DNA from: Diphasiastrum complanatum
Taxonomy: Eukaryota; Streptophyta; Lycopodiopsida; Lycopodiales; Lycopodiaceae
Direction of reading: 5' to 3'
Length of the DNA: 64,000 bases
Assembly (NCBI GenBank): GCA_029204225.1
Contig: CM055096.1
Coordinates: 45,537,346-45,601,345, forward strand
In this document: positions 30,037 to 63,546 of the stretch, piece by piece
Numbering within the stretch: position 1 is the stretch's first letter
Layout: every line of letters starts with the position of its first letter
Position numbers and translations under genes: made by a program
Notes under the pieces: model-generated
Seen by the model: only the letters and a program-made list of their open reading frames with translations
Databases searched by the model: none
What the model was told of the DNA's origin: nothing

Positions 30037-30039
30037 TTG

Positions 30040-30100
<61 letters not shown>

Positions 30101-30964
30101 GAAGAAAAAGAAGAAGAAGAAGGTTTATTAACGTCTTTAGCATGCCAAAGGCATATAAGGTGAAACAGTACATGCAAAACAGATGAAACTATGTCGTCAA
30201 CAAAACTAGAAAGGTCTACCTAAGAAGAGAATAATGGCCAGGATTATATGGTACGAAGACCATTTACAAGTTCAACTGCACACCTCCTCAATTCTAACAA
30301 AAGCTCTAACTTTGATCAATCTCAGATAGCAAACTTTTATTAACTATAGGCTTACGATCTACAAATCTAATATACCATAACGGTAGATGAGTCACTTGCC
30401 AATAGATAGACCTTCTTGTTTTACTTTTTTGCATTCTTGGACATGGATGAAGGTCAAATCTTCGTCCAAATCTTTTTTGGTATTCTGTAATTTAGATCCT
30501 TTTCCCAGGACTTCACGTCGGCGAGATAATGAGGTGAAGCGGATAACAAAAGTATGTGAGTCCTTTAAGAGGAGGGGAAGGTAGATCTTGTTGTGAGGAA
30601 GATGTGGAAACGATTCTGGAAACAGAATTTGGTGTAGAAGCAACAGCTTCATTTTGACGAGGCATTTTCACATATGAGAAAAGAAAAACCTAAAAAGATT
30701 GCGTTCAATTGTGGTTCCACTAGCAAATCAGATGGAGAGGCCAGCGCCCATCATGCAAGCGAAAATCCGCTGGAATGAGGTATGCTGGAGCAGTCTGTTG
30801 GACTGGAAGATCCGTTGGTGAAAGGTAGGATCGCTGGTGGGTTCCATTGGAGCAGGCAGGAAGAAGGTAGGATCGTTGGGACAGGCAGGTCCGTTGCTAC
30901 GGTAGGCAGTTGTCATTGCTAGAGCACCATTAGGAAGGCATATGTTGAGGAGGAACTGCTGTTG

Positions 30965-30965
<1 letters not shown>
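30037..30965 (-). mobile_element. LINE copy B: both ends kept, middle deleted
   Basis: Minus-strand LINE of the dominant family. The (TC)n tail is at 30039-30094 (read as GA), then the TTAATAAACC-type end and the hairpin ATGCC-TTT-GGCAT at 30142-30154. Near 30664 an ATG opens a Met-Pro-Arg-Gln-start frame resembling the ORF1 start of copy J. GC-richer, internally repetitive sequence at 30720-30960 looks like a 5' leader. ORF2 is absent, so this is an internal deletion product. Its 5' end abuts the (GA)n tail of copy A. Confidence 0.6.
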
Positions 30966-31016
<51 letters not shown>

Positions 31017-32265
31017 AAGAAAGAAAGATTTTATTAATGTCCTTGAATACCCTAAGGTACATATAGGACTCAAACAAGGTACATGTCAAGTGTGCACATA
31101 GATTAGGAGCTTAAAGCTCAGTCATCTATAAAACAATAACTGCAAATACAATGCATAAAGACGGCTGTCCCAGTTAGGGTCCAACAGCCTGGAATCATAT
31201 ATCATGATCCCTATCAGCCTAGAAGAAATGGTGAATGGTATGCTGTGAAGGTGTCACTGGATGTGCCATGGACCTTTGTTGCCGGATAGGCTGTCGGTGT
31301 CGTCTCTGCTGTCGTGTCGCTCTAGGCTGTGGCCTAATAGCTGACTGTCTCTCTGGCCGTCGACAGCCGATGTATGAAGGAATCTGGAATCTCAACCTCT
31401 CCATCTGAATCGTAGCCTATGGGTACCTTGGATCTCTGTCTCCGACGGGATATGCACTCACTGATGCTCAACTGTATCAGGGAATGTGTATCGATATCGA
31501 GTCTCCTCCTCCTCAAGTCTAACATCTCCCAAATAATCAATGCGACACATCTTGGGTCCTCATAAGATATCAGGGCAAAAAGTGTAGTTGGGTGCTCTCT
31601 GAACAGCTACAAAGCCGGTCCTCTCGTGGGGTGCCAATGTATCTGCCGGTCTCAATGGCCAGCTGACGTGAGGAAACCCGAAACTGACCCATCTCTATCT
31701 GCAACCTGTGTGATATACTCCTCAGCAAGTAACCAGATACTATGGGGCAACCAGCTGGATCAAGAGATAGAAAGTGTGTACGATAAAACTCACTCTTGGT
31801 CCCCAATGGACCCTGCCAAGTGATATGAAGATGTGATCCGTAGAGGAGGCCTCTGATGTACTGGTGGGTGCCCGCAGGTAGGTCAGTGATCTGGATACCC
31901 AATGCGGAGAGGAGACGACAAGCCTGGGAATACCATGAGAAAAGGTGTCCCTTTGAGTGTAGGCGCCGGGATGAGGATAGAGCTGCAACAACATAGTGTG
32001 TACCCCCCTCCTGAAGATCATCCAACCTCTGTATAAAAGTCACAATATGAAATAAGGCCTCAATCTGAATGGGAGGGACCGTGGACTCCGCCAATATAAT
32101 TTGGTGTGGTACTGAGGGCTTAGCTTGTATCATCCTGGAGAGTAAACGAATTTGGAGTCGGGAGATATATGACCAATCAGTAGCTGTCAGCAGACCAGTG
32201 CTCCATGTCTCGGAGGCATACATAGCTTGGAGTTCTATAAACTCAATCGCAATGCTTTTGTGAGG
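30966..32265 (-). mobile_element. LINE copy A: C-terminal ORF2 part and 3' end, 5' truncated
   Basis: The tail (GA)n-(GAAA)n is at 30966-31030, followed by the hairpin TACC-TTAG-GGTA at 31048-31059. From 32223 downward the protein reads YASETWSTGL, SRMIQAKPSVPHQIILAE, PPIQIEALFHI, LPAGTHQYIRGLLYG, SLDPAGCPI, QLAIETGRYIGTP, which corresponds residue for residue to copy H at 49.9-50.6 kb. A one-base shift breaks the zinc-finger region near 31570. It begins mid-ORF2, the usual 5' truncation. Confidence 0.85.
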
Positions 32266-32699
32266 GCCCTATTTCATCGAGATCAAATTTTCACTATAGA
32301 CATTAAACATTCTTCCCACAATTAAGTTAAATTGGGCTTCCATGTCAACAACATCCTTGTCAAGAACATCATGCACTATATATTCTTTCCATAGTCAGCT
32401 GCAACCAACTATGAAGCGCTGTCATACATAGTATTTGTATCTTTTGGCTAAATACTAAAGTGTCATACATTCTAATATCCCCTTGTTGAGAAGTATGCTA
32501 TCCATTTTTAGGAATCAGTGAATCAACAATACAATATATAGCATTTGCAAAAAGTAGGCTCGTACAATGCATAAATTTTTTTGAAAAAATCACTATCAAA
32601 TTCCACATAAAAAACGGAAAATTTGGAATCCCATATTGCCAAAAATAAAAAAGTAAACAAAAAATTAAAATAAAGATGTGTTCCGAGGCAGTTATATTT
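32266..32699. other. No gene recognised
   Basis: AT-rich sequence between the truncated LINE copy A and the hAT relic. I see no frame or repeat to report. Confidence 0.4.
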
Positions 32700-34609
32700 C
32701 CAGGCGGCTGTATATGGAGATGGGTTCAGGACACGGGCATCAAATTTGATTGATGTGCTGAGGCCTTTTTTTGTGTGTTGTGCCTAGTAGACCGAGAGGG
32801 GCGCGCTCTCGGTCTCATATATGAGTTCATGGACCGCATTGGGGAGGCGCTGACCAAATCCCACTTGGACGAGGCCAGGTAAAATTCTTTCCCTGTCTGT
32901 GCTATGTTCCCATTTCATCTTATAATTTCGCATGAGGAACAACTCATGACTGTAATATGTCTTGCGTTGTTGGGTGTTGCAGGAGACAGGAGCTGATAGA
33001 CATTTGGCAGCAGAGGTGGGACTATTTCCACAAGCCCATCCACGCGGTAGCCCAAATGTTCCACCACTTGTCACGCACCCCAGACGAGTGGGGGACCCAG
33101 AGTTCCATAGAGGATGGTTGGAGTACACAGATCGAGGGCTAGGTCTAACATTAATCTTCTGAGGTTTTAGGGTTCATGCCTGCACGATCTTGCTTGGATA
33201 GACACTGACTAGTGGAATCGTTATTTTGCCATCAAGTGGGGCTGAGCGCCTCAACATCAATGAGGGAGACTTGTTGATGTTCGAGACATGGATCAGAGTA
33301 TTCGGACATGAGCGGGTCCACCAACAGAGGGAGGACCAACTTCGTCCAATGACATGGTGAGGTTGTTATGGTCGCTCCGCGCCAGAGCTCCAACGCTTGG
33401 CGAAGAGAGTGTTGTCTCAGGATTGTTCAGCTTCCGCTTGTGAGCGGCACTGGAGTAGCTGGTCCATGCAGCACACGAAGAAGAGGAATCGGCTATCAAT
33501 TGAACAGTGCAGCCGGTTGGTTTATGTGTCAAGCAATGCGCAGATGCTACGACGATACGGCAAAGGCGGAGGCCTGCTTGAGGTTCGTTTTCTCCACCCT
33601 TTCTTGCCTTGCATATGCTTCTCATCATTACTAGTTTTCTGGTATTTTCTAGGCTCTGCAATGAAACTTGTATGGTGACTCAATGTCTATCATGGTTGCA
33701 GGTGAACCCTGCCTCTTGCATGCTCGACACGGATGCCACCATTTTACGAGTACCCCAAACGCAATCCGATGTTGGCGAGGAGATCCTTCAAGAGCTACAC
33801 AAACATATGGATGTCAAGGCCTGCTCTACACAACGCCAGTGGAGAGCAGTTGAGAGGCGGCGGCGGGTGAGGGAGGGGATGAGGAGGATTCACCGGAGGG
33901 GGGTAGGGAGTTTCAAGTTGACTACGAGGAGTGGGTGGATGAGTAGGAGGAGGCTATGGGGGTGGGTATGGAAGGAGCTGAGGGAGATGATCCGTGGGAT
34001 TTTGACATGGAGCAGTTGCTAGTGGACCCCGCTGCGGAGACACATGCATAGCCATTTTCACCTTCAGTTAGGCCTAGGGGGCGCCTCAAAGGCAAAGCGA
34101 GAGGGACATCACAGGCAGCTGCAGGCTAGGCATCATCCAAGTTCGTAGGGCCTTCGCAGGGTGTGGGACTTGTTGGGACCTTAGACACGCAGACACAATG
34201 GGATAGGGGGCGGCCTAGAGGCAGCTGCAGGAGTGGGGGGATCCAAGGGGGAGGGGCGGGGTAGAAGCAGAGGGGCAGGAGCAGCGGCACACACAGACGT
34301 AGAGCAGAGCCAATGCATCACCGCCACCAACATCACCCTCGTCATCAGACAGAGAGTCCCTGTTTCATTCTAGCATAGAGTCGGATGACTCTGACTACCA
34401 GAGGAGACAATGTCTAGATGATTTTGTATCATATTAATGTTATCATTCCTTTGTACTGGACTAGCTCGTTGCCTTGCGGCACGAGATTATATATATTCAA
34501 ATTTTTGCACGTGTCTTATCTCTCCAATGTGATTCATTTTGGTTTCAGCCATGATTCAGTATGGTTCAGTATGGTTCCTTGTTATTTCAGTTCGTTTGTT
34601 GTGATCTTA

Positions 34610-34612
<3 letters not shown>
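32700..34612 (+). pseudogene. hAT transposase relic, C-terminal half with introns
   Basis: VYEFMDRIGEALTKSHLDEA ends at a GT donor (32879), and an acceptor at 32980 restores the frame as RQELIDIWQQRWDYFHKPIH, a recognisable hAT block before the dimerisation domain. Further on, LLMFETWIRVFG, AKRVLSQDCSASACERHWSS and HTKKRNRLS (33330-33500) form the hAT dimerisation domain. A second intron-like join lies at about 33580-33702. Frames break in several places. The 3' part is GC- and Gly/Arg-rich. The element stops at (GA)n at 34613. Confidence 0.8.
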
Positions 34613-34691
<79 letters not shown>

Positions 34692-35040
34692 AAGCTTTAT
34701 AAATGTCTTTTCCATGCCAAAGGATCACTGAATAAAACACCCAGATAAGTATAAGATGAAACAATTTCCAAAGGTTGACCATCAAGGAAGATCTCCTAGT
34801 ACTAAATGAAAGCTCTGGAAGTATTGAAGACCATCACTTCGCTCTTCAAAATATTCACCCTCAATCCCCATTGGGTACAAAAAGTATGTAGACTGTCCAA
34901 ATGCCTCTGGAGTCCCTCTCTAGTCGGTGAGACTAGAGCCACGTCATCAACATATAACAATATAGCAATAAGTATTTCACCTAGGCTACAACCGATCCCC
35001 CCATCCTGCCTGATAACTGCCTCAAGCTCATCAATATATA
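34613..35040 (-). mobile_element. LINE copy C: RT scrap joined to 3' end
   Basis: (GA)n at 34613-34686, then AAAGCTTTATAAATG and an imperfect hairpin at 34714-34725. From about 34780 to 35040 the minus strand encodes the RT segment after the active site (ILLYVDDVALVSPTREGLQ, LDSLHTFCTQWGL), so ORF2 C-terminus is deleted. The 5' end at 35040 is the (GA)n tail of copy D. Confidence 0.85.
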
Positions 35041-35041
35041 A

Positions 35042-35130
<89 letters not shown>

Positions 35131-35394
35131 TTTATTAATGTCTTTTCCATGCCAAAAGGCATATAAGACCAAATGGAGTACATGCCAAGTATGTGAAAAC
35201 CATGGGAGCGTATATAAACATCTTCAAGAAAAAACTATGCATAAAAGAGAAATGAACAACATAACTATAAACTACAAATTGCCAATTGTCCATATAGCTG
35301 CCAAGAGTAGAGTAATATCATGTAGTGCTACTGCTGAAGAAAGATGTGATACGAGCTGCAACATGAGGTAACATGGACCGTCGCTGACGTCGTC
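35041..35394 (-). mobile_element. LINE copy D: 3' UTR only
   Basis: (GA)n at 35043-35126, the conserved AAAGCTTTATTAATGTC end, and a perfect hairpin ATGCC-TTTT-GGCAT at 35149-35162. The remaining 230 bp match the 3' UTR of copy L. Heavily 5' truncated; its 5' end lies against another (GA)n tract. Confidence 0.9.

Positions 35395-35459
<65 letters not shown>
35395..35459. repeat. (GA)n microsatellite
   Basis: About 32 perfect GA units between the 5' end of LINE copy D and the interior of an LTR element. No LINE 3' end follows it, so it is either the original insertion site or generated during insertion of copy D. Confidence 0.9.
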
Positions 35460-35461
<2 letters not shown>

Positions 35462-38845: not shown

Positions 38846-38869
38846 AATGATGGAATCCCCTTGGTAGGG

Positions 38870-42179: not shown

Positions 42180-42211
42180 CTGATGGATCTAGATGTGGTG
42201 GAATTTTTAAG

Positions 42212-45510: not shown

Positions 45511-48138
45511 CGTGTGAATTCTGGAAATTTTGTCAGTATGGAACTGTGATGGTATACACTCATCGTCCAGAGCTAGAGACCTGATTGATTTCATCACTGG
45601 TAGAAATTTATTGCTTTTCATGGAAACTCACAAGAGTCAAGAGAGGGGACTACCTACTTTCCCAAGATACAGATGGATTCCGTGTATAGACCTGAGACCA
45701 GCTAGTGGTCGGGGATCTGGAGGTGTTGCATGCCTTTACAAGGAGTCTCTTCACTCAAGCATCGAGTTCATCAAACATGACGAGCATGCATGTTATATTT
45801 GGATTTAGACGAGATATTGGTTTGAACAGGAACATCTTTGTGGCGGCATGTTATTTTCCTCCAGAGTCATCTTTTGCACCCTACCTTGATCTATCGTTGG
45901 ATATAGTCAGATTCTCAAACTGGGGGCATATTTTCCTCACCGGGGATTTTAATGCCCGGACTTCCTCACGACAATCAAAGTTTTATGACACCACCGACCA
46001 GCTCCATGTTCATGCCCTTGACAGTGATGAGATGAGAGTTACCAGGATTCAAAGGACAACTTGGGACCTATAACCCCCTATGGTGAGCATTTACTGCAGT
46101 TTGGAGAGGCCCATGAGTTAGCCATTTATAATGGCCTAACTTGCTGGCCAAATTCAGGTAGTTATACCTGTCATCCTCACAGTGGCGGCATAGTGTCGTG
46201 GATTATCTCATGGGGTCACCATCCTCCATCCCTATCATCTCTGATTTTCATATCTCTCCCATCACCCTCTCTGATCATTCCTTTCTCTCCTTTGTTATTG
46301 GCCGCCTCCCACCTCCCCAGTCATCCTCCTCCCATCCCATGCTTACCTATGCACCCAGATATACGTTCAGCTCTCTATATATGCTAGTCTACCAAGAGCC
46401 TCCCTACTCCACTCCTTTCCCCATGACATTATAGTCGAGACACAAGCTACTTTCCTTACCACCTCTCTTCATATTGCCGCTTCTCTAGCCTTTCTGTCTC
46501 AGCCCCATAAAGGCAAACACACACATTCCTCACCGCTTCGTCCACCGTGGTATGATGCCGAATGTCATTCTCTTCATCAACTTGTCCCCCATCCATGTAC
46601 TCATGCTCCCCACTTTCCCCGCTCCGCCCAACACTCTTACCACCGCACACTACGCCGTAAAAAGCGTGCTTATGATGACTCTGAAAGAAAGCGGCTTGTT
46701 GACCTTCTCTTCCGTTCTTCTTTGGGCGCTTTTTGGCGTGAGTTTATCCCTCGTGCTCCACCACCTCTCCTAGACGACCTCCGCATGTGGGCCAATTATG
46801 CTACCAGCCTATATACCATACCCACTAACACACCCATCTCTATCTCTCCACGCCCTTCTGAGTTCACCTTCTTCAACTCTAACATGGTACTTGCGGCCAT
46901 CAAGAGAATGAAGTCCCATAAAGCAAGAACATCGAAGACCTCGAATCTGAACTCCTAGCTCATGCTGACGACCTCCTTGCTCCCACACTAGCCACTCTCC
47001 TCAATTCCGCAGTTGTCTCTGGCTTCCCATCATCCTGGTGCACCAACATCATCCACCCTATTCATAAAAATGTTGACCCCATGATCCTAGGTAACTACCG
47101 CACTATCATGATTGGGGCATGTTCTTGCAAAGCTATATGGTACCATACTTCAATCTACAGTGAACTCAGAGGTGGAATCCAGGAGATTACATGCGTTGGG
47201 ATAGGTAGGTTTGACCATATCTTCACACTTCGAGCTTTGATTGAGGAAGCTAAGTACAAGAAAGAAAAGGTTTACTGTTGTTTTGTGGACTTCAAGAAAG
47301 CGTTTGATTCTGTACCATGCTCCCTGCTCATTCAGAGACTTCGTGACCTTGGCTTCTCCATCGATATGATCCTGGCAGTGATGGGTTTTGGGATGTTTTA
47401 GACATGGTAATGGCATTTCTTAGCCCATTTGGAGCACCATTGGGGTGAAGAAGGGTTGTTCTCTTTCACCAGTTCTTTTTAATTGTACATTTTAGTGTGC
47501 TTGAGCTAGTTGCAGACTTGGCGATACTCTGATTGCCATCCTTTTATGCAGATGATGTGGTACTAGTATCTCCGACCAGAGAGGGGTTACAGAGGCAGCT
47601 GGATTGTTTACAGGGCTTTTATACTAGATGGGGATTGGGGGTGACATTGCGAAGACCAAGGTTATCGTCTTCAACACTTCTCGAGCTTTCATGCAGCGTC
47701 AGGAGCTCACTCTCGATGGACAGACCTTAGAGGTAGTTTCTTCTTACACTTATTTAGGGATACTTTTCTCTAGTCCTACCTTCAGCATGTAATAGGCAGC
47801 TACCACTTGACTTGGGAAGGGACATTCCTCCCTTGTTCAGCTAGAGTGGTTTTGCTTCAGGAAGTCCATTCCAAATGCTCGTAATAAGTGTAAACTTTTT
47901 GATACTATTGTCACCACCACAGCCTTGTATGCAGTACAGACATGGTGTACCCGTATTCCCTAATCACACTGGGCCAACATCTCACGATTACAGACCACCA
48001 TGTTAGCTCGTACGTTTCGGGCAAAGCCCTCTATTCCACACGAGATCCTTCTTGCAGAGTTTGTCGTCCCACCCATTCAGATAGATGCAACTTTCCAACT
48101 TATTCCCTATATTTAGATAGATGCAACTTTCCAGCTTT

Positions 48139-48178
<40 letters not shown>
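45511..48178 (+). mobile_element. LINE copy G: endonuclease, RT and part of C-terminal domain
   Basis: Starts with VWNCDGIHSSSRARDLIDF, LLLFMETHKS, GSGGVACLYKES, IFLTGDFNARTSS, EAHELAIYNGLTCWP (endonuclease). RT follows: NYRTIMIG, FDHIFTLRALIEEAKY, VYCCFVDFKKAFDSVP, FYADDVVLVSPTREGLQRQLD. C-terminal part reads NISRLQTTMLAR and PHEILLAEFVVPPIQID up to 48130. The last segment, zinc finger and 3' UTR are missing; instead a local duplication (GATGCAACTTTCCA twice) is followed by (TC)n at 48139-48178. Confidence 0.88.
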
Positions 48179-48182
<4 letters not shown>

Positions 48183-48953
48183 GAGGATTTCAGAGATTTT
48201 TGTGCAGATGGTGATATCTTACTACTCACTAAGACACATGAGAGTCCTGAGAGGGGACTATCGGCCATTGAGGGTTTTTGTTGGTACTCTGCGCATCAAA
48301 GGGCTACGAGAGCATTGACCGATCGAGGTTCAGGTGGAATGGCCTGCTTAGTCCGAGACTTCCTTCAGCCTTGGGTCGAGTTGGTACATACTGATGAGCG
48401 GGCTCACTGTATTTGGATTCGGGTGGATCGGAGTTTGATGAGCCTGGATCGAGACCTCTTTATGGCAATTTGCTATTTTCCACCGGATACATCAGTTTCC
48501 ACATCAGATGAGGAGTCACCTTACATGGATATCTCTTCGGACATTATCAAATATGAGCAGCGGAATTATATTCTTCTAGCTAGAGACTTCAATGCCCGAA
48601 CTGGGTCCAAGCAGACAAAGTTCCATAGCGCAAAGGATGATCCACAACGAATACATGCTATAGACTGGGATGATCTTGGCCTCCAACGACGATCGACAGA
48701 CGCAGAGGATCCACTTACTGCATATGGAGAGCAGATGCTCCAGTTGGGCGAGGCTCATGGATTGGCCATTTATAATGGCCTACTGCAATGGCCCGATTCA
48801 GGTGACTATACTTGTTTTCCACACATCGGAGGGCATAGTGTTGTTGACTATTTCATGGAATCGTCGTCTCTCCTTCCCTCCATTTCATCCTTCTTGGTTC
48901 ACCGCACCACCCTCTTTGACCATTCATACCTCTCTCTCTATTGGCCTTCTTAG
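48183..48953 (+). pseudogene. LINE APE-type endonuclease domain (copy H)
   Basis: ILLLTKTHESPERGL, then RGSGGMACLVRDFLQP, LFMAICYFPPDTS, YILLARDFNARTGS, EAHGLAIYNGLLQWPDSG, HSVVDYFMES and DHSYLSL. The N-terminal FWNCNG block is lost by truncation, GDFNAR is changed to RDFNAR (catalytic Asp kept in -DFNAR) and the final SDH is FDH. Such APE-type endonucleases nick the target to prime reverse transcription. Confidence 0.88.
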
Positions 48954-49159
48954 CACCTCACACACTCGTATATTAACCCTCAGCGGGAAGACTGTAAATC
49001 GCTATACCCCTCAAAACATTCCTTTGTACAGGGAAGCCTTATCTAAACTTCTAACTCACTTTCCATACGAGCATGCTTTAGCGGACCAGTCTCATTTTCT
49101 TGTCCGGACCATCCATACCACTGCATCCCTTGCTTTTGCATCCCCACGGCACTAAGCTT

Positions 49160-51045
49160 TATGGCACCATACTCCAGTCTGCAGTAAGTTCAGAGGCGGA
49201 ATCCAGGAGATTTCATGCATTGGGACAGGCAGGTTTCCGAGCTCATTACTCTACCACTGACCATATTTTCACACTTCGAGCTTTGATTGAGGAAGCCAAG
49301 CACGGGAAAGAAAAGGTTTACTGCTCTTTTGTGGACTTCAGGAAAGCCTTTGACTCTGTACCACGCTCCCTGCTCATTCAGCGACTTCGAGATCTTGGTT
49401 TCTCCATGGATATTGTTCTGGCAGTGATGGCTCTTTACGAAAAAGTCCTGGGATGTTTCCGACATGGTAGTGGCATCTCTGATCATATTTGGAGCACCAT
49501 TGGGGTCAAATAGGGTTGCTCTCTTTCGTCGGTCCTTTTTGGATTGTACATTGATGAGTTGGAGCGAGCCATCGCACAGTGTGGCGGAGCTGGATGTAGA
49601 CTTGGCAACATCTTGATTGCTATTCTCTTGTATGCGGATGATGTGGTACTAGTATCCCCGACCAGAGAGGGATTACAGAGGCAGCTGGATTGTCTAGAGG
49701 TTTTTTGTACCAGATGGGGCTTGGGCGTGAACACTGCGAAGACTAAGGTTATGGTCTCAACACTTCTCGAGCCTTCATGCAGCGCCAGGAGCTCATGCTT
49801 GATGGATGGGCTTTAGAGGTAGTTTCCTCGTATACCTATCTGGGAATACTCTTCTCTGGTCCTACTTTCAGCATGCGACAGGCAGCCACCACCCGACTTG
49901 GGAAGGGACATTCCTCCCTTGTTCAGCTTGAGCGGTTCTGCTTCAGGAAGTCCATCCGAGATGCTCGCAGTAAGTGCAGACTTTTTGACACTATTGTCAC
50001 TCCCACGGCCTTGCATGCAGCAGAGATATGGTGTACAGGTCTCCCGTCATCACATTGGGCCAGCATTTCACGATTACAGACCACCATGCTAGCTCATATG
50101 ATTCGGGCGAAGTCCTCGGTCCCACACGAGATTCTTCTTGCAGAGTTTGCTGTTCCACCCATTCAGATAGCTGCAGCATCCCAGCTCATCGCTTATATTC
50201 AGAGAGTTTGGGATTTACTAGATACAGACACGAGATATACGCGGGCCTCACTTGCCTCCTCACACTCCCTTCATGACCAGGGCTATCGACTGTCGTGGTT
50301 CTCACAGGCGTCCCATTTCCTCCTTGATTCATTTGGCATATCCATCACAAAGCTCCCTTCGGGTGCCCACCAGTATATCAGGCGCTTCTTATATAGAGCG
50401 TATCTCGACCGCACTTGGAGGTGACAGCTTGGGGCTAAACCCGCCTATTACTGGACTCATTTCATTGAGCTTGACACAGCAGGGTTCCCTATTTTGCCAC
50501 ACTATTTGGACTCGGGATTATCACATAGCCTCAGATTTACCTTGGGACAGCTCCACATATCATCACATCAGCTGGCTATTGAGACTGGGAGATTCCAGGG
50601 CACCCCGAGAGAGGAGCGGATTTGTCAGTTTTGTTCCCTGGATGAGGTGGAGTCGGAGGATCACTTTATCTTTAGATGCCCTGTGTATTACGAGATCAGA
50701 GGGAGATATCACTGTTTGTTTCGTGACACACCTGTCACACTACGATCCCTCCTAGCCTATGAGGACTCCAGATGTGTCACACTCATGTTACGAGAGATGT
50801 TTATTCTACGGCAGGACCTATGTCAGACAGCCCAGCGGAGTCATATTTCTCAGCAGCAGATCACCTCTTTCTTTTCCAGGAGACGAGGACGAGACTTTGT
50901 ATCTGATGAGGATGAGACAAATGACGACTTACATGCCCACAGAGATCAGAGACAATGTCCCACTCATACTCATGTTGTTGCACGAGTTACCCGACCTATC
51001 AGGAGGAGCCTCATCTCCCCAGACGACGTCATCGACCACCAGTAG
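49160..51045 (+). pseudogene. LINE reverse transcriptase and CCHC-like C-terminal domain (copy H)
   Basis: RT blocks: FVDFRKAFDSVPRSLLIQRL, GVK-stop-GCSLSSVLFGLYIDELE, ILLYADDVVLVSPTREGLQ (active-site ADD intact), WGLGVNTAKTKVMV, then a one-base shift to VVSSYTYLGILFSG. C-terminal region: IRAKSSVPHEILLAEFAVPP, LPSGAHQYIRRFLY, a stop at 50422, then QLAIETGRFQGTPREERICQFCSLDEVESEDHFIFRCPVYY, a C-x2-C ... H-x4-C finger common at the end of LINE ORF2. Ends at TAG 51045. Confidence 0.9.
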
Positions 51046-51349
51046 TTCCTTATGCTGCAGCCCATATTACATCCTTTTTTAGCATCAGCGGGACAGGATT
51101 GGGTGATAGTGTCATACCAGATTCGTGACAGGTAGACAATTAGCATTATATATGCTCTCATATGTTTCATATATCATTGCATCCTTTTCAGTTTCAGTTT
51201 TCAGTTCAGTTTATAGTAGTTAGATTTGTATTTCTGTTATCTTGGAGACGTTTCATACGCTCCTACAGTTACCACATACTTGACATGTACTTTGACTAGT
51301 CTTATATGCCTTTTGGCATGGAAAAGACATTAATAAAGCTTTCTTTCTT

Positions 51350-51386
<37 letters not shown>

Positions 51387-51387
<1 letters not shown>

Positions 51388-52104: not shown

Positions 52105-53152
52105 CAATGAAAGAAAAGCGGGACTGGGCAGACATTTCCCGCATTTAAGCCACTATCTTGGGTCGCATGATACGTGCCAAGACTACCACCCCTCATGATA
52201 TCCTATGTGCTGAGTTTGCTACTCCTCCGATCATCCTTGAGGGCTTTTTCCAACTTATTCTTTTTCTTTAGCGGATTCAGGAGATTCGTGCATCTCACCC
52301 GAAAGATACATAGTTGCTGTAGATACTTCTTCACGTGTCCAAGGTGATTCTCATACCAAGCTCTCCAGGTATTAGCAAGCGTCTAATCTCTTACGACATC
52401 TGGGCATCTCTATCATGGATCTTCCTCATGGTACACATTCATATATCCGAGGCTATTTATTTTGTCGACATATGCAGAAGACTTGGAGCTCTCTCCCACC
52501 TCCCCGCACTCGACTGAGCTATTACCAAACACACTTCCTCTCTCTGGATCCTTCTGGTTTGCCATTGTTGCCGCTCTATATCTCACAGCCCCTATCACAC
52601 GGCCTACGCTATCGTCTTGGGCAATTGCGCATTTCCTCTAATCAGCTTGCTATTGTGCATGGGATATCCCCCGGAAGCGTCGTCTATGTCACTTGTGCTC
52701 ATTGCAGGAGGTGGAAGATGAAGCCCATTTCCTCCTCAGATGTCCATTGTATTATGAGATACGAGGGAGGTATTATTGTCTCTTTCGCGATGGCCCACAT
52801 ACCCTTCGCAGTTTTGTCTCCTATCTTGATGCTCGTTGCTTGGACTTCTTGTCTGTGAGATGCTTACTCTCCGTCAGTCTCATCTGCGTGTACCAGATCA
52901 CCTGGGGTTAGACTCCGAGCAGCTGCTTCTCACTGGCTTCTTTCGGACTCGAGTACATGCTCATGACTCCAACTATGAGATTCCTATCCCTGTGCCACTG
53001 CGGAAAAAGCCCAGATGTAGTCACCACTTGCCTCCATCAGGGCCCACTGTACACTCCACTCAGCGGACACTTCACACTTACTTTCGCTGATATGTATACT
53101 CCCGCTTTTGCTTGTACATATTTTCTTTTTGGTCAAGACGTTAATAAAGCTT

Positions 53153-53193
<41 letters not shown>
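52105..53193 (+). mobile_element. LINE copy I: C-terminal ORF2 part and 3' end
   Basis: WADISRI, RMIRAKTTTPHDILCAEFATPP, LPHGTHSYIRGYLF, SLDPSGLPLLP, RYRLGQLRISSNQLAI, then in another frame CSLQEVEDEAHFLLRCPLYYEIRGRYYCLFRDGP (finger) match copy H. 3' end: GACGTTAATAAAGCTTGC then (TC)n at 53157-53193. The tail hairpin is not conserved here. Directly followed by the 5' end of copy J. Confidence 0.9.
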
Positions 53194-53197
<4 letters not shown>

Positions 53198-55860
53198 GAT
53201 GGTCTGAGCAGGATCTGGAGCGCTGATCTGAAAAGCGCTGCTCAGAACTGGACCTAGGAGCGGGACCTGGGCTCTGATCTGAGCTGGGCACAGAAGTTGC
53301 GATGGTCTGAGCAGGTAGCGCTGCTCAAGTGCACGCTGACTGATGCTGCCCGGACCCTGGTTGACCCCTGCACCAGATGCTAGCGTCTACTAGCCCGTTG
53401 ATCTCTTGATTGCAGGAGCCTGACTGGCCCCCTCTGACCAGGTGCTGCCTTGCCCTGAGGTACTGACTGCAGACACGCTGACCTTCTGACCAGGTGTTGC
53501 TCTGTTGTCCTTGGTGTTCTCTTTACATTTCCTGTCCTTTCTACATCCTGCCTTCACACATGGCACCTAAGAAAAAGGGGAGTACCCCGACACCCCCCCC
53601 CCCTCTATCCATCTCTTCTCCTCCCCCACCTTCTACAATGGCCGGGGATGTTATTTCACCTACAGCAATGAAGGAAGCACTCGGAGGCTCCATTTTCACC
53701 GACACTATACTTGATGTCACAGAAACGGCAAAGCAAGCCACAGTTGATTACGCTCCTTCCAAGCCTATTGAGAGTCTTTATGCCTATGATATTGGTTTCA
53801 TCCGAAACGAAATCATCAGCCTTAAGAAACAACTACACTTTTTTGAAATTGCGAATGGCAAGTTGGTTATGGATCTCATAAGTGTCAAAGAGGGTGGAGC
53901 AGCTTGAGCAAGAAAATGTTTATCTTAAGCAACGGATTGCCGAACATGTATAGCCTTCGGACGAAACTTCCAACAAAATATCTTGCTTGGAAAAACAGGT
54001 CGAAGAGACAAAGACATGGGCAGCACTCTTCAAACCGGATGATATGGGTAGCAAACTCTCATCACTTGCAAAACAGGTTGAAGAAACGACATCGATCCTC
54101 AAACAAGGTAATCACCCCCATATCTCAGCCTCTATGATGGATAACAATTTGGAGACAGTTTTGGATGAACAAGCTAGAAGAGCTAAAAAGGCTCTCAATA
54201 TTAGGGTAAGAGGCATTGCCAACGGCAGTAAACCAATAGACAAAGCTACAGATTTACTCGTTTTCAAGTTATCTCATGTTGTTGATGGTTTTGATACGGC
54301 ATGGCATAGTAAATTTGATGACAACGTTCTTTTTGTCAAATTTCGCTCTCTTCAACACCGCAATGCAGCCCTTCGGCTTAGAACAAAACTCAAGGGCACT
54401 TTCATTTATATGGATGATGATTTGACAAATACCCAACGGTTGGCAAGGAAAAAGATTATTCACGAAGCAAAAGAAAAAGGGCAAAGGGTCATTTAAATCG
54501 ACGGCAAACCAAGATATTTCGACCTCCTCTCACGCTAGGAACTTGGGGCTCCCGAGTTTAGGAGCTGCCCGAGATCCCCTACCATTTTGAGACTTGGCTT
54601 CTGGAATTGCAATGGTTTTTTATCATCATCATCGGCAAGAGATTTTGCTGATTTTATAAGCAAATGTGACATTTTGTTGTTGGCTGAAACCCATGAGTCC
54701 TTATATCATCCTCTTCCACATATACAGAATTACTCTTGGCATTCTATTTTTCGCCCATTTGTGAGGGGTAAAACTTGTCGTGGATCTGGTGGAGTAGCTT
54801 GTTTATACAGAGCCACGACAGTTAAGATGGTTAAGCAAGATCCGTATGCTCGATATATATGGATACATACTATTGGTTCATTATTGGGATTACCGCAGGA
54901 CATTTATATGGCTGTATGTTACTTCGCTCCACAGACTTTGGCGTTTGCTGAATTTGGTGGGGACCCATTTCAGGCACTCTCAGATGATATTGCTGTTTTT
55001 TCTCAACAGGGCTACATTTTTCTAGCAGGAGATTTCAACGCCCGTACTAGCTCCAGACAGACAGAATTACATGCAGATAATGACGTTCTTCGGCTTCATC
55101 CTCTAGATATGGGATTTGATCGAGTATCACAGGATGCACACACTTCAGTTACATCTTTTGGAGAGCAGTTGATTACTCTTGCGGAGACACATTCTCTGGC
55201 CATCTTGAATGGCCTCACACAGTGGCCTTCCTCATCAGCGTTTACATGTTATCCTCATGGTGGAGGACATAGTGTAGTTGACTACTTTATTGGATCACCT
55301 GCTTTGATCCCCCACATCTCTGATTTCTCCATTACACCTCCTACCATCTCTGATCACTCACTCCTACGCCTCTCACTGGGTCACATAACCCCGTCTTCTA
55401 AAGTTCCACGCTTCTCTTCTACTAATAAACGTGTTCCTTTTACTCACTCTGGACTCGCCAACTACACCACAACCCTATCCCAACTACTTACTCACTTCCC
55501 TTTCACGGCATCAGTTGAGCAACAAGCCACTTTTCTCTCTAAATCCCTCTTATCTGCAGCGTCCCCATCTTTCCCCACCAAGACGATATCATCTCATAGA
55601 CGTGTTCACAACCGCTGGTATGATGCAGAATGTCGTTCTCTTCACAAACATGTGGCAAATGCCAGATTACACTCCCCTACAACACTCAAACGACACCAGA
55701 AAAAATATCGTAAAGCCACAAAAACAAAGAAGATAACATACCTACGATTACTCTTGCCAAAGGTTGATCGATTCTTTAGCTTCCTCTTCCTCCTCCTTTT
55801 TCTGGAAACATTTCACCAGATCCTCCTCGACTTTGGCCCCCATCGCAACCGAATTTTGGG
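53194..55860 (+). mobile_element. LINE copy J: 5' leader, ORF1 and intact endonuclease ORF
   Basis: The only copy showing the complete 5' half. A GC-rich leader (53194-53559) with reiterated GATCTGAGC/GGTCTGAGCAGG phrases leads to ORF1 (53560) and ORF2 (54587). The leader starts exactly after the (TC)n tail of copy I. The element is cut at about 55860 by a minus-strand copia element, so RT is missing. Confidence 0.88.
53560..54496 (+). pseudogene. LINE ORF1 (RNA-binding chaperone-like), broken
   Basis: Starts ATGGCACCTAAGAAAAAG with a basic, Pro/Ser-rich N-terminus, then heptad-like stretches (LKKQLHFFEIANGKL, LEQENVYLKQRI, LAKQVEETTSILKQ) that look coiled-coil. The C-terminal part has KALNIRVRGI, VLFVKFRSLQHRNAALRL and YMDDDLTNTQRLARKKII, like the RRM plus C-terminal domains of L1-type ORF1 proteins, which package the element RNA. 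Frame shifts near 53895 and 53985 and a stop near 53950 break it. Confidence 0.75.
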
Positions 55861-55870
55861 TCGAATATGA
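54587..55870 (+). CDS. LINE ORF2 N-terminal part, intact APE endonuclease, truncated before RT
   Basis: 427 open codons. Endonuclease signatures in order: FWNCNGFLSS (residues about 5-14), CDILLLAETHES (Glu, about 30-41), GSGGVACLYRA, DIYMAVCYFAPQT, YIFLAGDFNARTSS (Asp/Asn, about 145), ETHSLAILNGLTQWPSS, GGGHSVVDYFIGSPALIP and ISDHSLLRLSLG (Asp-His, about 263). A basic linker follows (RWYDAECRSLHKHVA, KKYRKATKTKK). The last residues read into the copia junction. All catalytic positions I can place are kept, but with no RT it cannot act alone. Confidence 0.88.
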   Translation: MRLGFWNCNGFLSSSSARDFADFISKCDILLLAETHESLYHPLPHIQNYSWHSIFRPFVRGKTCRGSGGVACLYRATTVKMVKQDPYARYIWIHTIGSLLGLPQDIYMAVCYFAPQTLAFAEFGGDPFQALSDDIAVFSQQGYIFLAGDFNARTSSRQTELHADNDVLRLHPLDMGFDRVSQDAHTSVTSFGEQLITLAETHSLAILNGLTQWPSSSAFTCYPHGGGHSVVDYFIGSPALIPHISDFSITPPTISDHSLLRLSLGHITPSSKVPRFSSTNKRVPFTHSGLANYTTTLSQLLTHFPFTASVEQQATFLSKSLLSAASPSFPTKTISSHRRVHNRWYDAECRSLHKHVANARLHSPTTLKRHQKKYRKATKTKKITYLRLLLPKVDRFFSFLFLLLFLETFHQILLDFGPHRNRILGRI

Positions 55871-56215: not shown

Positions 56216-57547
56216 TTAACTAATGCTCAGCCAAAAGGGGTAAATACTAAGTGGTTTAGTAAAAATATCAGTTGTCTGGTCGTTGGTGTCACAATAAACT
56301 AGCTCGATCTCCCCACTGTGCACTTTCTCTCGTATAAAATGCTGGTCCACCTCTATGTGTTTCGTCCGTTCATGATAGACTGGATTCCTCGCAAGCTGAA
56401 TGCAACTTTGGTTATCACAATGTAACAATGTAGGTCTTACTTGAGCAAACTGCATGTCCTCAAGTAGACGACGTAACCAAATGGCTTCACAGGCGGACCT
56501 CGTAGTCGCCCTGTACTCAGCTTCGATAGATGATAGAGCAATAGTAGGCTGCTTCTTACTGCACCATGATATAGCCCCTGAACCTAGGCTGAAACAATAG
56601 CCTGTCGTCGATCTCCGATCGTCTCTATCACCTGCCCAATCAGAATCTGAATAACCCTCCAGCTGAAGGTTCCCGTCATCTGTGTATCCAATCCCATAAG
56701 TCACTGTCCCTCTCACGTATCGTAGGATCCGCTTGGCTGCCTTCCAATGTGCTTTGGTAGGCTTACTCATGAATTGACTTGCAATTCCAACCGCATAAGC
56801 AATATCTGGCCTGGTGGTAGTAAGGTAAATCAGGCTGCCCACTAACTGACGATAGAGCGTCTCATTTGCAAATGCTGGACCATCATCTTTCGATGGCTTG
56901 TTGCTTGCATCCATGGGTGTGCTGATTGGTTTGCTTTCTTGCATGTTAAACCTCTTCAATAATTTCTGTGCATACTTTGCCTGTGAGATAAAAAGACAAT
57001 GCTTCCCTTTCCAAACTTCAACTCCTAGGCAATAGTGTAGCAAACCCAAATCTTTCATCTCAAACTCATTAGAAAGATTATTCTTAACACAAGCAATAAG
57101 CTTCTTATTGCTTCCCGTGATGAGTAGATCATCCACATAGAGCACAACAACCACAAAGTCTTCTCCTTCCCTGAAGACATAAAGATTGCAATCAGACTTA
57201 CTCTTCTCAAACCCTTGCCTTGCAAAGTACTCATCAATTCGGCTATACCCAGCCCTTGGCGCCTGTTTGAGCCCATACAAGGCTTTTCTAAGCCTGCAAA
57301 CCAGATTCTCCTTGCCTGTTATTTCAAATCCCTGCGGTTGTTCCATGTAAACCTCCTCCTGTAGGTGCCCATTAAGAAAGGCACTCTTGACATCCATTTG
57401 ATGGACATCCCAACCAAAATATGAGGCTATAGCCAAAACGGTCCTGATAGATGTCATCATAGCAACAGGTGTGAATGTCTCATCGTAGTCTAGCCCCTCT
57501 TGCTGTGCATAGCCTTTAGCCACCAACTTTGCCTTGTACTTGTCCAC
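56216..57547 (-). pseudogene. copia reverse transcriptase and RNase H (443 open codons)
   Basis: AKLVAKGYAQQEGLDYDETF, MDVKSAFLNGHLQEEVYM, LYGLKQAPRAGYSRID (Trp of APRAW changed to Gly), VVLYVDDLLITGSN (intact YVDD), YCLGVEVW, RPDIAYAVGIASQFM, RILRYVRGTVTYGIGY, GYSDSDWAGDRDDRRSTTGY, ISWCSKKQPTIALSSIEAEY, HCDNQSC and KHIEVDQHFIREKV. Complete RNase H with its Asp-Glu-Asp set. The longest intact copia frame in the window. Confidence 0.92.
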
Positions 57548-57743
57548 TGTTCCATTGGCATGAAACTTGGCCTTATAGACACTTGCAACCTATTGGTTGC
57601 TGCAATGTAGTGAGCTCCCATGTGTCATTCTTGACAATGGAGTCGTACTCCTCCTGCATGGCATGTTGCCATACCTTTTCTCTCACGGTTCGTGAAAGAA
57701 CTGTGGCTCATCTGCATTCAAAATAGTGGACATAAGAGCAAAG

Positions 57744-59324
57744 TTAGTCTCTTAGCTTCTTCCTAGCAGTAGGTGATGTGGATGGTGACCATGTATCCCA
57801 TGTTACCGTCTTAGTCTTCCGTTTGTCCCCAACTTCGGCTTCTGGTACTTGGCCAAAAAGAGGTCTCGAACTAGTAGGTTCGATTTCCTGTTGTTGCTCC
57901 TGCACTTGAGGCTTACAGGACTCTTGACTGGGATCCTCATCCGTGGAATCAATCAAGGGTATGAACTCAGTAGTTCCTTCCTTCTCCTGCTCCTGTATCT
58001 TGGGTGCATGCTCTTCATCAAAGATGACATCTCGACTTAAGAACTTCCTCCTGTTTTCGAGATCATATAGCACATAAGCTTTCTCACCTTCACTATACCC
58101 AAGAAAGACACACTTTACAGATATTGCATCAAGTATCTTCCGCAAGTCCTTTGGTATATGTGCATATGCAGTACACCCAAATACTCGAAGGCTGCCCACT
58201 TTGGGCTTGTTGCCACTATATGCCTCTTCTGGCGTGATTCCTTCAACTGCTTTGGTTGGACTTCTATTCAATATAAAAACAGCAGTTGCTACCGCTTCCG
58301 CCCAAAAGGAATTTGGCAACCCCTTTGCCTTGAGCATGCTCCTCGCACACTCAACTATAGACCTGTTTTTCCGCTCAGCCACGCCGTTCTGCTACGGTGT
58401 ATGTGGAGCAGTAAACTGTCTCTTTATCCCACATGCTTTGCAAAGATCTTTGAACTCATCAGAAATATACTCACCACCCTTATCTGACCTGAGAGTCTTT
58501 AATCTCTTTCCTGTGTGGTTTTCCACCACAGCTTTCCACTGTTTGAAGTATTTGAACGCTTCAGATTTCAGTTTCAGAAAATAGACCCATACCTTCCGAG
58601 AGAAATCATCTACGAAGGCCATGAGATAGTATGCCCCCCCTGCTGATTTGACCTGCATGGGACCACATAAATCTGAATACACAAGTTCAAGAATGCCCTT
58701 GGCCCTGGTAGCTTTCTCCTTTGGAAACTTTTTCCTCTGTTGCTTCCCTAATGCACAAGCCTCACATGTATCTGAAGAAGACTTAATGCTAGGAAGATCT
58801 ACTACCATTTTGTGCCTGTTCAAGAATTGCAAACTTCTATAACTCAAATGACCATATCTCTCATGCCAAAGCTTGTCCCGATTAGTATCCCTTGCAGACA
58901 AGGCCTCTTGGCTAGGAATGGTTGTGAAAAGCTTGTAAAGACCTCCTCCTTGCATTCCCTTGGCTACCACCTTGAAGTTCTGATCTTTGTCTTTTACCAA
59001 ACATTTAGAATCATTAAACTCTACCACCATGTTCTGTTTGGTAATGGCACCAACAGATAGCAAGTTCTTAGCCAACCCTGGTACATGCAACACACTTTCA
59101 ATTTCCTTCACCTCACCTGATGACAGCTGTATTGCAACTGTGCCTTTGCCCCTCACCATATGTGTAGAATTATCTCCAAGGCAAACATGCTGACCATCTT
59201 CTGTCTCCTCATAGGTGCTGAACCAATCTCTATGAGGTGTCATGTGCTTTGAGGCTCCAGAATCAATGTACCATCCACCAAATGTGGATTCAGATGATAG
59301 GGCTGTGGTGAATAGCTCAAGCAC
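57744..59324 (-). pseudogene. copia protease and integrase
   Basis: WYIDSGASKHMTPH (protease active site, about 59260), LHVPGLAKNLLSVGAIT, then LWHERYGHLSYRSLQ and CEACALGKQQRK (HHCC), LELVYSDLCGPMQ (first Asp), LRSDKGGEY (second Asp), and after a single TAG the frame resumes as QNGVAERKNRS (Glu). FWAEAVATAVFILNRSPTKA, LRVFGCTAYAHIPK and FLGYSEGEKAYVLYD follow. One nucleotide change would explain the only stop. Confidence 0.92.
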
Positions 59325-59399
59325 ACCAGATTGCTCCTCCTCTGCAACTTTGTCAACAAAGTGACCCTGCTGGTTCTTTTCTTCTTCTGATCACTTTGC

Positions 59400-59775: not shown

Positions 59776-60250
59776 TTGTCTTATGAACCTTTGGGTACCA
59801 AAAGACGTTAATAATAATAATTCTAATTCTAATTCTCTCTCTCTCTCTTTAGATGCCCCATATATTATGAGACTAGAGGGAGAGATCACTGTCTATTCCG
59901 TGACATGCCTACTACACTCAGAGCACTGATTGGATATGAGGACTCTCGCTGTGTTGCACTTATGCTACGAGAGATGGTCTTGCTGCGCGAGGATATGTAC
60001 CAGTCAGTTCACCAGCCACATCCTAGCCGCAGGCTTAGATTACGTCTTTCTTCACCAGGAGACGGACACGATCTGATGACGATGATGACGACATACCACC
60101 TCACCAATGTCAGAGACAGTGTATCACTCACAGTCATACAGCAGTTCGCACTTCCCGCCTTGTTACGAGAGCACACAGTTTTCACCCTCCTTAGCGACGG
60201 TCCATACCTCCTTGTACAGCTCGTATTACGTCTTTTTTCAGCAGCAGTAG
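59776..60250 (+). mobile_element. LINE 3' end followed by a LINE C-terminal fragment
   Basis: 59776-59848 is a diverged LINE 3' end: CTTATGAACC-TTTG-GGTACC-type hairpin, AAAAGACGTTAATAATAATAA, then TCTAAT repeats and (TC)n. Immediately at 59849 a second LINE starts inside the ORF2 finger (RCPIYYETRGRDHCLFRDMP, LRALIGYEDSRCVALMLREM, equivalent to copy H at 50680) and continues to about 60250. A LINE 5' end again sits on a (TC)n tract. Confidence 0.85.
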
Positions 60251-60490: not shown

Positions 60491-60584
60491 TATTATGACC
60501 ACATGTACTCATAAGGGCCCCAATTCCTTTATAGTCACAATTAACTTACGGGTTGTTGGTCTACCGGTTCCTAGCGTGGACACG

Positions 60585-61646: not shown

Positions 61647-62394
61647 ACGAAAAAGCGTAACAAAATCGATGATGAAAATGAACTATGGAATCAAAACGCA
61701 AATGGAACGGAAACTAATAACAAATAACGAAAGACAAACTGAAAAATGCGATGGAAAACACAAACTACAAAATGGAATGGAAATGACAAAACAACAGCCA
61801 TAGGCAAAAAGTTAAGCCAGGCAAGACGCTAATCAAGTGGACGAACTGAAGAAGAGGACAAAAGTCGTCACAACAGGTATGCCAATGAAAAGACGTGACA
61901 AAGCTTGTTAAAGAAAAAAAGAGGGTAGTGTAAGTAGTACCTCGCAACTGCAATCGAAAGCATGCTGAAAACGGTGGTAAAATGGAGAGATAACGGGCAA
62001 CTACAAAATAGAGATAAGAAGGGCCTGCAAAAGCAACCAAATAATGAGAGAAAGAAGTAGCAAGTGGAGTATATGGCTGGAAAATGGACAGCAAAGTGAG
62101 GAAGGGGAGTGCCAAAAAGAGAGGGTTAGGCAACCAGCAAGCAAAGCTAAAAAATCAGTACAAAGAAGGTGGAGACAATGCAAGGAGGTGTGGGCTAATA
62201 GGTTGAGTTGTGGACAGCAAGTGGAAAGTAGAGTACTGGAAGTAGGTGATGGTGGGCTGGAAAATGGGCAGTACGTGGGCAGCAGTAGAGCGCCAGTCCT
62301 TCTCCAAACGATAGTGATAATCTGTAAAACAAGTGGAGAGAGAGAGAGCTAAAGATCCAAGCTGAAAAATAATGAAGATCCAATCTGAAAATGG

Positions 62395-62850
62395 GTGCTA
62401 GGCAACAGCTAGTAAGATCCAAAAATGTCCTGCAAAATGATGGAAAAATTGCAGAAAATGGTGATGAAGTAGGGTGCTGGACAGCCTCCAAACAATCAGC
62501 AAAATGGACAGCAAATTGGTGGAGAAATCCATCGAAGATGGCAAGGTAGTAGCGCGCTGGGCAGGAGCTACCAAAATCAGCACATAACTTGAAAAAAAAT
62601 GGAGAAAATCGTTGAAAATGGTGATGAAGTAGGGCGCAAGACAGCCTCCAATCAATCCACGAAATGGGCAGCAAATCGGTGGAGAAAATCGACGAAAGTG
62701 ACAAGGTAGTAGGGCGCTGGCCAGCCTCTCCAAATCTAGAAAAACAATGGAAATCTGATGAAAAGATCGACAAAAGTGATTGGTTAGTAGGGCGCCGGAC
62801 AACCTCTACTAAATCTGAAAAAGTGGTGCAAAGGAAAGTGCTCTGATAAA
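62395..62850. repeat. ~80-bp tandem repeat, about five units, in LTR-element leader
   Basis: The marker GTAGGGCGC (with variants) occurs at 62469, 62549, 62629, 62709 and 62787, spacings 80, 80, 80 and 78. Units share GGACAGC-style and ATGGAGAAAATCG-style phrases with much divergence. The minus-strand frame 62869-62195 runs through it, but 80 is not a multiple of three, so the frame is unlikely to be a protein. Confidence 0.8.
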
Positions 62851-63190
62851 AAGTTACGAATGAAGCCACAATTGATCTAGAGCTAAGCTATGAAAGCATC
62901 ACATAAGCAAGACTTAACCCTAGAAAGCAGGAAAGAGAGATTAAGGAGACTAAAGAGAGAGATCAATATCATCAACTGAGTAACAAATGACACAGATTCC
63001 CTACTTATAGCCTAGAGGAAGCCCTAAAAGGAAGCTTCCAGTGGTAAGGGCCCAACTGGGAGGGATAATAGTGCGCCCTCCAAGAAGGCCCCCACTCTCC
63101 AGTAATATGTCCAAATGTCCAAATAATGAATAATAAGGCCCACGGCCAACCATATAGTCTAAGTGTCAATAATGAATAAAAAAGGGCCCA
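62850..63190 (-). repeat. 5' LTR (right copy) of the 60-63 kb element
   Basis: Longer of the two copies. Lies beside the degraded primer site at 62838-62849. Contains an A/G-rich stretch at 62925-62975 missing from the other LTR. Confidence 0.8.
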
Positions 63191-63261
63191 AGACCTGCTT
63201 ATGCATAAAGTAAAGTAAATGTAAATGGACGTGGCGAATGTAATAAGCCGAGTCCATAACT

Positions 63262-63479
63262 GCAGCACTATTTATATGATACTACTCCACTCCTGGCAGC
63301 TATTCTTGCTCCCACTTATGGACAGTTGGCATTTTGTAGTTTACAGTTATATTACTCATTTCCCTTTTATGCATAGTTTTTTCTCTTGGAGACGTTTATA
63401 TACGCTCCCATGGTTTTCACATGACATGTACTCCATTTGGTCTTATATGCCTTTTGGCATGGAAAAGATATTAATAAAG

Positions 63480-63543
<64 letters not shown>
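63262..63543 (+). mobile_element. LINE copy L: 3' UTR and tail only
   Basis: About 210 bp matching the 3' UTR of copy D, perfect hairpin ATGCC-TTTT-GGCAT at 63447-63460, AAAGATATTAATAAAGC, then (TC)n with one GC interruption to 63543. Heavily 5' truncated. Confidence 0.92.

Positions 63544-63546
<3 letters not shown>

Follow-up and report, generated by a model that had tools for sequence, protein, structure and literature searches.

Does a long interspersed nuclear element (LINE) of Diphasiastrum complanatum use a dinucleotide microsatellite as its insertion site? The question arose from a 64,000-nucleotide stretch of contig CM055096.1 (GenBank assembly GCA_029204225.1), referred to below as the window, in which translated self-comparison and Pfam searches found LINE fragments with an AP-like endonuclease and a LINE-type reverse transcriptase (RT) among Copia-type elements, and in which the initial annotation had placed six LINE 5' ends exactly at (TC)n tracts. 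Our analysis indicates that a LINE lineage with two open reading frames (ORFs) and an endonuclease of the apurinic/apyrimidinic (APE) type very probably takes (TC)n tracts already present as its insertion sites, with nicked (GA)n, paired with the element's own pyrimidine tail, as the likely primer of reverse transcription. What the sequences show directly are the 5' ends at (TC)n, their orientation, paralogous empty sites with (TC)n, one empty and filled pair that keeps both flanks, and chains at several loci; the interpretation offered in the initial annotation is supported.

LINE 5' ends in the window

All six junctions (30965/30966, 35040/35041, 35394/35395, 48178/48179, 53193/53194 and 59848/59849) were present, with small slips only; that at 53193/53194 is real, but the tract extends to 53195 and LINE F begins at 53196 (ACGATGG...). 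We found a seventh junction, absent from the initial annotation, where the 5' part of a LINE begins at 63545 behind the tail at 63481-63544. This gave 7/7 placeable 5' ends at (TC)n in the window (30966, 35041, 35394, 48179, 53196, 59849 and 63545), the first of them placed by eye from its ORF1-like start. The 5' ends of three further pieces, A (near 32227), D (near 45520) and G (between 51386 and 52122), stand outside the 7/7 count, and we saw no (TC)n at them. The 5' tract had been described as usually the tail of another LINE. That at 35397-35458 is no LINE tail and lies behind the leader of a long terminal repeat (LTR) element; the tract at 48139-48178 does follow a LINE, but the similarity of that LINE to the next copy ends mid-ORF2 (48120) with no ordinary 3' end. 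The LINE copies, their tracts and the adjoining units of a non-LINE repeat, H, are as follows.

29992..30042, minus strand: repeat H copy directly behind a LINE tail (29992-30151 matches 34572-34723 at 83%)
30043..30096, minus strand: (TC)n between a LINE 3' end and repeat H
30097..30966, minus strand: LINE with 5' start at 30966 (5' untranslated region (UTR), ORF1-like start), a large internal deletion and a (TTC)n-type tail, read by eye
30967..31012, minus strand: (TC)n tail of LINE A, with the next LINE piece directly after it in the sense direction
31029..32227, minus strand: LINE A, 3' part of ORF2 (similarity to 50008-50901)
34494..34613, minus strand: repeat H behind the tail of LINE B
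34614..34691, minus strand: (TC)n tail of LINE B, or target tract of H
34692..35041, minus strand: LINE B, with its 5' end in ORF2 (RT) at the tail of LINE C and an internal deletion reaching the 3' end
35042..35126, minus strand: (TC)n tail of LINE C
35127..35394, minus strand: LINE C, a 5'-truncated 3' end (35065-35324 matches 63273-63544 at 87%; remainder read against stretch L056)
35397..35458, minus strand: (TC)n behind the LTR-element leader, the 5' flank of LINE C
45530..48120, plus strand: LINE D (endonuclease (EN) and RT), running into (TC)n mid-ORF2
48139..48178, plus strand: (TC)n between D and E
48179..51341, plus strand: LINE E, 5'-truncated within the EN domain exactly at (TC)n
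51342..51385, plus strand: tail of LINE E, (TTTC)n and then (TC)n
52122..53156, plus strand: LINE G, 3' part of ORF2 and 3' end
53157..53195, plus strand: (TC)n tail of LINE G
53196..55870, plus strand: LINE F, with the family 5' start, ORF1 region at 53482-54493 and ORF2 endonuclease at 54539-55867 (Pfam; other copies of the 5' end)
59803..59848, plus strand: LINE 3' end with a TAATTC-type tail plus (TC)7
59849..60248, plus strand: LINE H, 5'-truncated in ORF2 at (TC)n
63273..63480, plus strand: LINE 3' end, source of the genome query
63481..63544, plus strand: (TC)n tail
63545..64000, plus strand: LINE I, 5' part near the ORF1 start, resuming outside the window after an LTR insertion (stretch L010 has EN and RT)

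LINE 5' ends elsewhere in the genome

We searched the same genome with the first 200 bases of LINE I and of LINE F, TC excluded, and fetched stretches from the lists of best-scoring copies, which are not a random draw; labels such as L015 or L068 denote stretches fetched elsewhere in this genome. For the F family we fetched 18 of the 19 listed loci outside the window (one partial match was left out), and 17/18 start at (TC)n, the exception being L068. When L073/L074 and L079/L080 are joined the count is 15/16, or 14/15 if L065/L075 are also one event. For the I family, 20 of the 39 listed places outside the window were fetched: seven copies start at (TC)n, L051 does not, and 12 carry (TC)n inside the 5' UTR. 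Three of these 12 (L053-L055) were followed 1 kb further, and in 3/3 the true start lies at (TC)n. Over both families, 27/29 placed 5' ends are at sense-strand (TC)n, nine of the 38 copies being uncounted behind an internal 5' UTR (TC)n; the merged total (pairs L073/L074, L079/L080 and L047/L048) is 24/26. A majority of copies with non-(TC)n 5' flanks had been named in the initial annotation as the outcome that would speak against it, and the fetched copies gave the opposite. The orientation fits the annealing model, TC and not GA lying on the sense strand; (GA)n was seen at 0/41 stretches.

These counts were compared with a random sample of 20 stretches of 10 kb (200 kb), which held 26 (TC)n tracts of at least 12 bp, one of them recognisable as a LINE tail. 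Only 0.54% of the sampled positions lie in, or at most 5 bp after, a sense-strand tract of at least 10 bp, and the binomial probability of the 15/16 merged F ends is ~2e-33. (TC)n is thus common enough to be a useful target and much too rare to account for the junctions; the statement that random insertion would not place so many 5' ends at such tracts held up, and against this 0.54% background we rejected chance as the main cause.

Upstream of the tract, LINE 3' sequence was recognised by similarity at 10 of the 24 merged ends, including L069, where the LINE ends short of its normal end. L070 shows a LINE by eye only and L079 a weak LINE match. In the remaining 12/24 no LINE match was found before the tract in a similarity check that took in L067, L076 and L082 among others; L081, one of these 12, shows no upstream sequence. 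As a separate observation, some LINE bodies enter (TC)n ahead of the normal 3' end (window 45530-48178, L037 and L069), which would fit insertion at (TC)n of RNAs shortened at the 3' end as well.

The 12 I copies with an internal tract bear on a further explanation, in which the 5' (TC)n is part of the element, transcription starting in an upstream (TC)n or the first bases being (TC)n that is carried to each site. One subfamily does have such an internal tract (12/20 copies), but copies truncated in ORF2 also begin at (TC)n (35041, 48179, 59849, L060 and L112), and LINE-free sites of repeat H and of a second repeat, R (below), carry (TC)n, which speaks against it as the sole cause. On these two grounds, the ORF2-truncated copies and the LINE-free sites, we rejected a fixed 5' (TC)n as the main cause and regard it as very unlikely.

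In the I subfamily the internal tract has a CTGCTGACG-type minisatellite on one side and the start codon of ORF1 on the other (L034-L036, L038-L040, L042-L046 and L052); it may be the scar of a former chain junction.

Paralogous empty sites

A search with 14 joined flank pieces led to a repeat family, R, one part of which forms the 5' flank of L071 and the adjoining part the 3' flank of L064. Among the 14 fetched R loci (L103-L116), 11 have no LINE, and in these a (TC)n of 10-101 bp precedes the right flank, the same right flank that a LINE tail precedes in L064. As for the other three, L112 has a LINE cut within ORF2 right behind (TC)4, the right flank of L114 follows a LINE tail that matches another tail at 98% over 45 bp, and L113 has a left side unlike that of other R copies. 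The LINE-free match of L071 (an F-family 5' end) and of L112 is L103, whose left arm is identical up to the tract over 30 aligned bases; the other ten empty R copies have a somewhat different left arm, and only L103 has the arm of L071 and L112. A DNA query of tail plus R flank gave no match, probably because it was almost wholly simple repeat. A search for (TC)3 plus the R right flank with at most one mismatch matched 535 places. Repeat R comprises several hundred copies with a central (TC)n, and two or more different left arms occur among them.

Repeat H consists of ~150-bp units, often in tandem and mostly with their own (TC)n. Twenty H loci were fetched, of which eight read unit-(TC)n-unit, seven have LINE 3' sequence in front by similarity (six after merging L089/L102) and five have other sequence in front (L087, L090, L093, L095 and L098); two LINE-H junctions in the window come in addition to these 20, and in L049 the order is H unit, (TC)n, LINE 5' end. 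H copies were noted in L086, L088, L091, L092, L094, L096, L097 and L100 and at window 34494-34613, several of them sharing the following sequence GTGCAAAAATATGAATATATACAATCTCG. Comparison of L101 with L090 and L096 gave the pair in which both flanks are kept: a short LINE 3' end has been inserted at the left edge of a tract that is empty in L090 and L096. A single paralogue, L117, is a LINE-free counterpart of L072 and carries (TC)n.

These sites bear on two further explanations. Were LINEs inserted at random and the (TC)n at both ends grown later by slippage, pyrimidine-rich tails could have seeded this growth at 3' ends. Slippage does not explain, however, why 5' ends cut anywhere within ORF2 are preceded by (TC)n, and the tract is already there in R and H copies that lack a LINE. 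These copies led us to reject post-insertion slippage as the main cause, and we give it hardly any credence. A second possibility is ectopic recombination, in which exchange between (TC)n tracts, numerous in this genome, would have shuffled LINE pieces into false junctions. (TC)n is abundant, L058, L062 and L064 are rearranged or internally deleted, LINE D meets (TC)n mid-ORF2, and the R copy L113 has an unrelated left side, all of which would agree with recombination; yet L101 against L090/L096 is a clean insertion, and the same family 5' start lies beside (TC)n at different loci. We consider recombination an improbable source of the junctions.

Tails and chains

The 3' ends were sampled with 63273..63480 as query, the best 40 of 2172 first-look candidates being scored. 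All nine fetched copies (9/9) have pyrimidine tails ending in (TC)n. For chains we used 10 tails taken blind to the sequence that follows them, namely these nine and L015 of the random sample. Four (L015, L057, L058 and L060) continue into a LINE by similarity, and L059, probably a fifth, continues by eye into an ORF1-like start without a similarity match; L056 and L061-L064 continue into other DNA. Head-to-tail chains therefore exist at four, probably five, of 10 tails. The LINE in L060 has its own 5' truncation, at a (TC)n longer than 100 bp. Outside the 10, in a case sought on purpose, the LINE tail of L112 enters an ORF1 start (L119), and the stretch beyond this chain reads by eye as LTR-element sequence.

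Thirty-four tails, picked by a motif scan in which a (TC)n tract was obligatory, have, by family, (TTTC)n, (TTC)n or (TTCTA)n-like ends passing into (TC)n. This pattern is what an RNA tail joined to target (TC)n would leave, although slippage in reverse transcription would look alike. In L085 a (TTCTA)n tail abuts repeat H directly.

Chains could also arise by template jumping, in which the enzyme leaves one LINE RNA and goes on along the (UC)n tail of a second, so that LINE-(TC)n-LINE arises in a single event, with no need for a microsatellite target. The frequency of chains (4 to 5 of 10 tails) and the members 5'-truncated exactly at a tail (window B, E and H) are what such jumping would give, and it may explain part of the chains; it does not, however, account for the (TC)n that precedes 5' ends lacking LINE sequence upstream (L053, L066, L071, L072, L076 and L077 among others), or for repeats without a LINE that have (TC)n in the same position. 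As an account of the junctions in general we find template jumping unlikely, though the least so of the alternatives.

Element type

The ORF2 endonuclease is of the APE type (Pfam Exo_endo_phos PF03372, 9.9e-15), and its profile matched human L1 endonuclease structures with an E-value of 3e-4 over profile positions 4-263; a single-sequence EN search of structures gave nothing at 0.01. For the reverse transcriptase, PF00078 matched under the curated cut-off on broken pieces, and RT profiles matched R2 and L1 ORF2 structures. No RNase H match was found in the broken ORF2 3' pieces scanned; PMC4640811 lists an RNase H domain for the I group, R1 included. A poly(A) tail, typical of flowering-plant L1, was not encountered, the tails being pyrimidine in 9/9 copies. 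With most 5' ends at one microsatellite and (TC)n at the empty sites, the lineage would, as judged from sequence comparison, qualify as a microsatellite-targeting LINE.

Proposed mechanism

In the mechanism that we propose, the ORF2 endonuclease would nick the (GA)n strand of a tract, and the (GA)n 3' end so freed would pair with the LINE RNA at its pyrimidine-rich tail, in which (UUUC)n, (UUC)n or (UUCUA)n precedes (UC)n, and prime reverse transcription there. At its 5' end the copy would be connected with the TC strand, either inside that tract or at its left edge, by a second-strand step that we infer. The predicted product, flank-(TC)n-LINE-(TC)n-flank, carries TC on its sense strand. Such target-primed reverse transcription from nicked (GA)n agrees with the orientation, with the exactness of the tract edges and with the empty sites. 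Since every new copy ends in (TC)n, its tail would be a fresh and rightly oriented target; later copies would land behind earlier tails, and chains would grow by successive insertion.

Several observations weigh against this reading. The F copy L068 and the I copy L051 have non-TC 5' junctions, as do the truncated copies L015, L056 and L064 (rearranged), and L101 was joined at the left tract edge with no TC retained. L118, the paralogue of L068 that carries no LINE, lacks (TC)n as well, which means that off-target insertion occurs, and the H copy L087 lacks (TC)n at the usual place. The raw count of 19/20 I copies was inflated by the subfamily's own 5' UTR (TC)n, and we dropped it as a count of TC junctions, 12 of these copies having the internal tract. 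The 3' ends come from nine of the 39 listed places outside the window, taken from the best-scoring copies. Finally, the check for empty (TC)n sites raised by the initial annotation turned up paralogous sites with (TC)n, all of them inside this same genome, but no allelic empty site was found. Truncated copies with TC at the 5' junction also occur (window B, C, E and H, and L060), but as a group they are less strict than copies with the family 5' end; the (TC)n flanks and the chains expected in the initial annotation were both seen.

A more far-reaching idea, which we put forward only tentatively and think somewhat doubtful, is that a land-plant LINE has made its own tail its target. Self-growing chains would result, fusions across (TC)n would give truncated copies the 5' UTR of the copy in front and so make new source elements, and the 5' UTR (TC)n of the I subfamily would be a scar of such a fusion.

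Other features of the window

Two features of LTR elements lie among the LINE copies.

35532-35521: TGGTATCAGAGC in the LTR-element leader, which we take to be a plant LTR primer site
56216..59390, minus strand: Copia-type LTR element (integrase, RVT_2; Pfam), separate from the LINEs

LINE H is apparently broken by another element at ~60249-63188. Window segments 60249-60489 and 62852-63188 are alike (91-97%) and could represent the two ends of an LTR element that lies inside LINE H. At 37717-41083 LINE pieces lie head to head (minus strand from 38782 to 37717, plus strand from 38875 to 41083), the pattern expected of 5' inversion (twin priming). Outside the window, dynein heavy-chain exons at G000:C1:34125294 and C1:77273775 are mirror-image copies with equal scores on one contig, reflecting a segmental duplication or an assembly artefact. 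The presence of dynein heavy chains speaks against a flowering plant, a group not known to have them. A chlL search gave nothing above its cut-off, a result that carries no information should the assembly lack the plastid.

Comparison with known systems

Among animal LINEs, Kibi and Koshi of fish, in the Tx1 clade, reportedly insert at (TC)n, and Mino/Waldo of insects, in the R1 clade, are said to insert at (AC)n; to our knowledge the Tx1 and R1 clades have been described from animals. The LINEs described here resemble these in lying at one dinucleotide repeat, which in Kibi and Koshi is reportedly the same one. They differ in that their genome has plant-type LTR elements and dynein heavy-chain genes, in that the EN profile is nearest human L1 among solved structures, and in having distinct pyrimidine-repeat tails that feed into (TC)n and chains of several members.

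In PMC4640811, Togen ((TG)n, fish) and some HERO families are also given microsatellite targets, and most reported target-specific families are described as early-branched, Tx1 or R1; Tx1 and R1 are named as the only APE clades with site-specific LINEs in PMC13295347. We found no microsatellite-specific LINE of a land plant in the literature searched (titles and the starts of abstracts, with most subscription journals outside its coverage). A (TC)n-directed LINE in a plant-like genome with ~1 tract per 8 kb would mean that dinucleotide targeting arose, or persisted, more widely. It would also offer a system in which one genome yields both empty and filled sites. Since a single kind of tract appears to serve families that differ in their pyrimidine tails, it would further provide a natural test of RNA-tail annealing against endonuclease specificity in the choice of LINE targets.

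Plant LINEs of the L1 and RTE clades are alike in combining an APE endonuclease with a reverse transcriptase. According to PMC3747384, flowering-plant L1 LINEs are nearly all poly(A)-tailed and RTE LINEs end in (TTG)n or (TTGATG)n; PMC13295347 adds that the microsatellite-like 3' repeats of RTE LINEs are thought to influence nick or priming, and that plant RTE insertions are marked by a T stretch plus TA and by target duplications. This signature is no microsatellite target, whereas the target here is (TC)n.

Nested and clustered LINE copies are known from Zepp and ZeppL of green algae (PMC3446292 and PMC8226300). Zepp is described there as forming one cluster per chromosome at putative centromeres, whereas the copies reported here lie on many contigs and have (TC)n junctions. 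Transposable elements beside microsatellites, termed landing pads (Kejnovsky 2013, as cited in PMC12477314), are a statistical neighbourhood; the LINEs in this genome present base-exact junctions together with empty sites.

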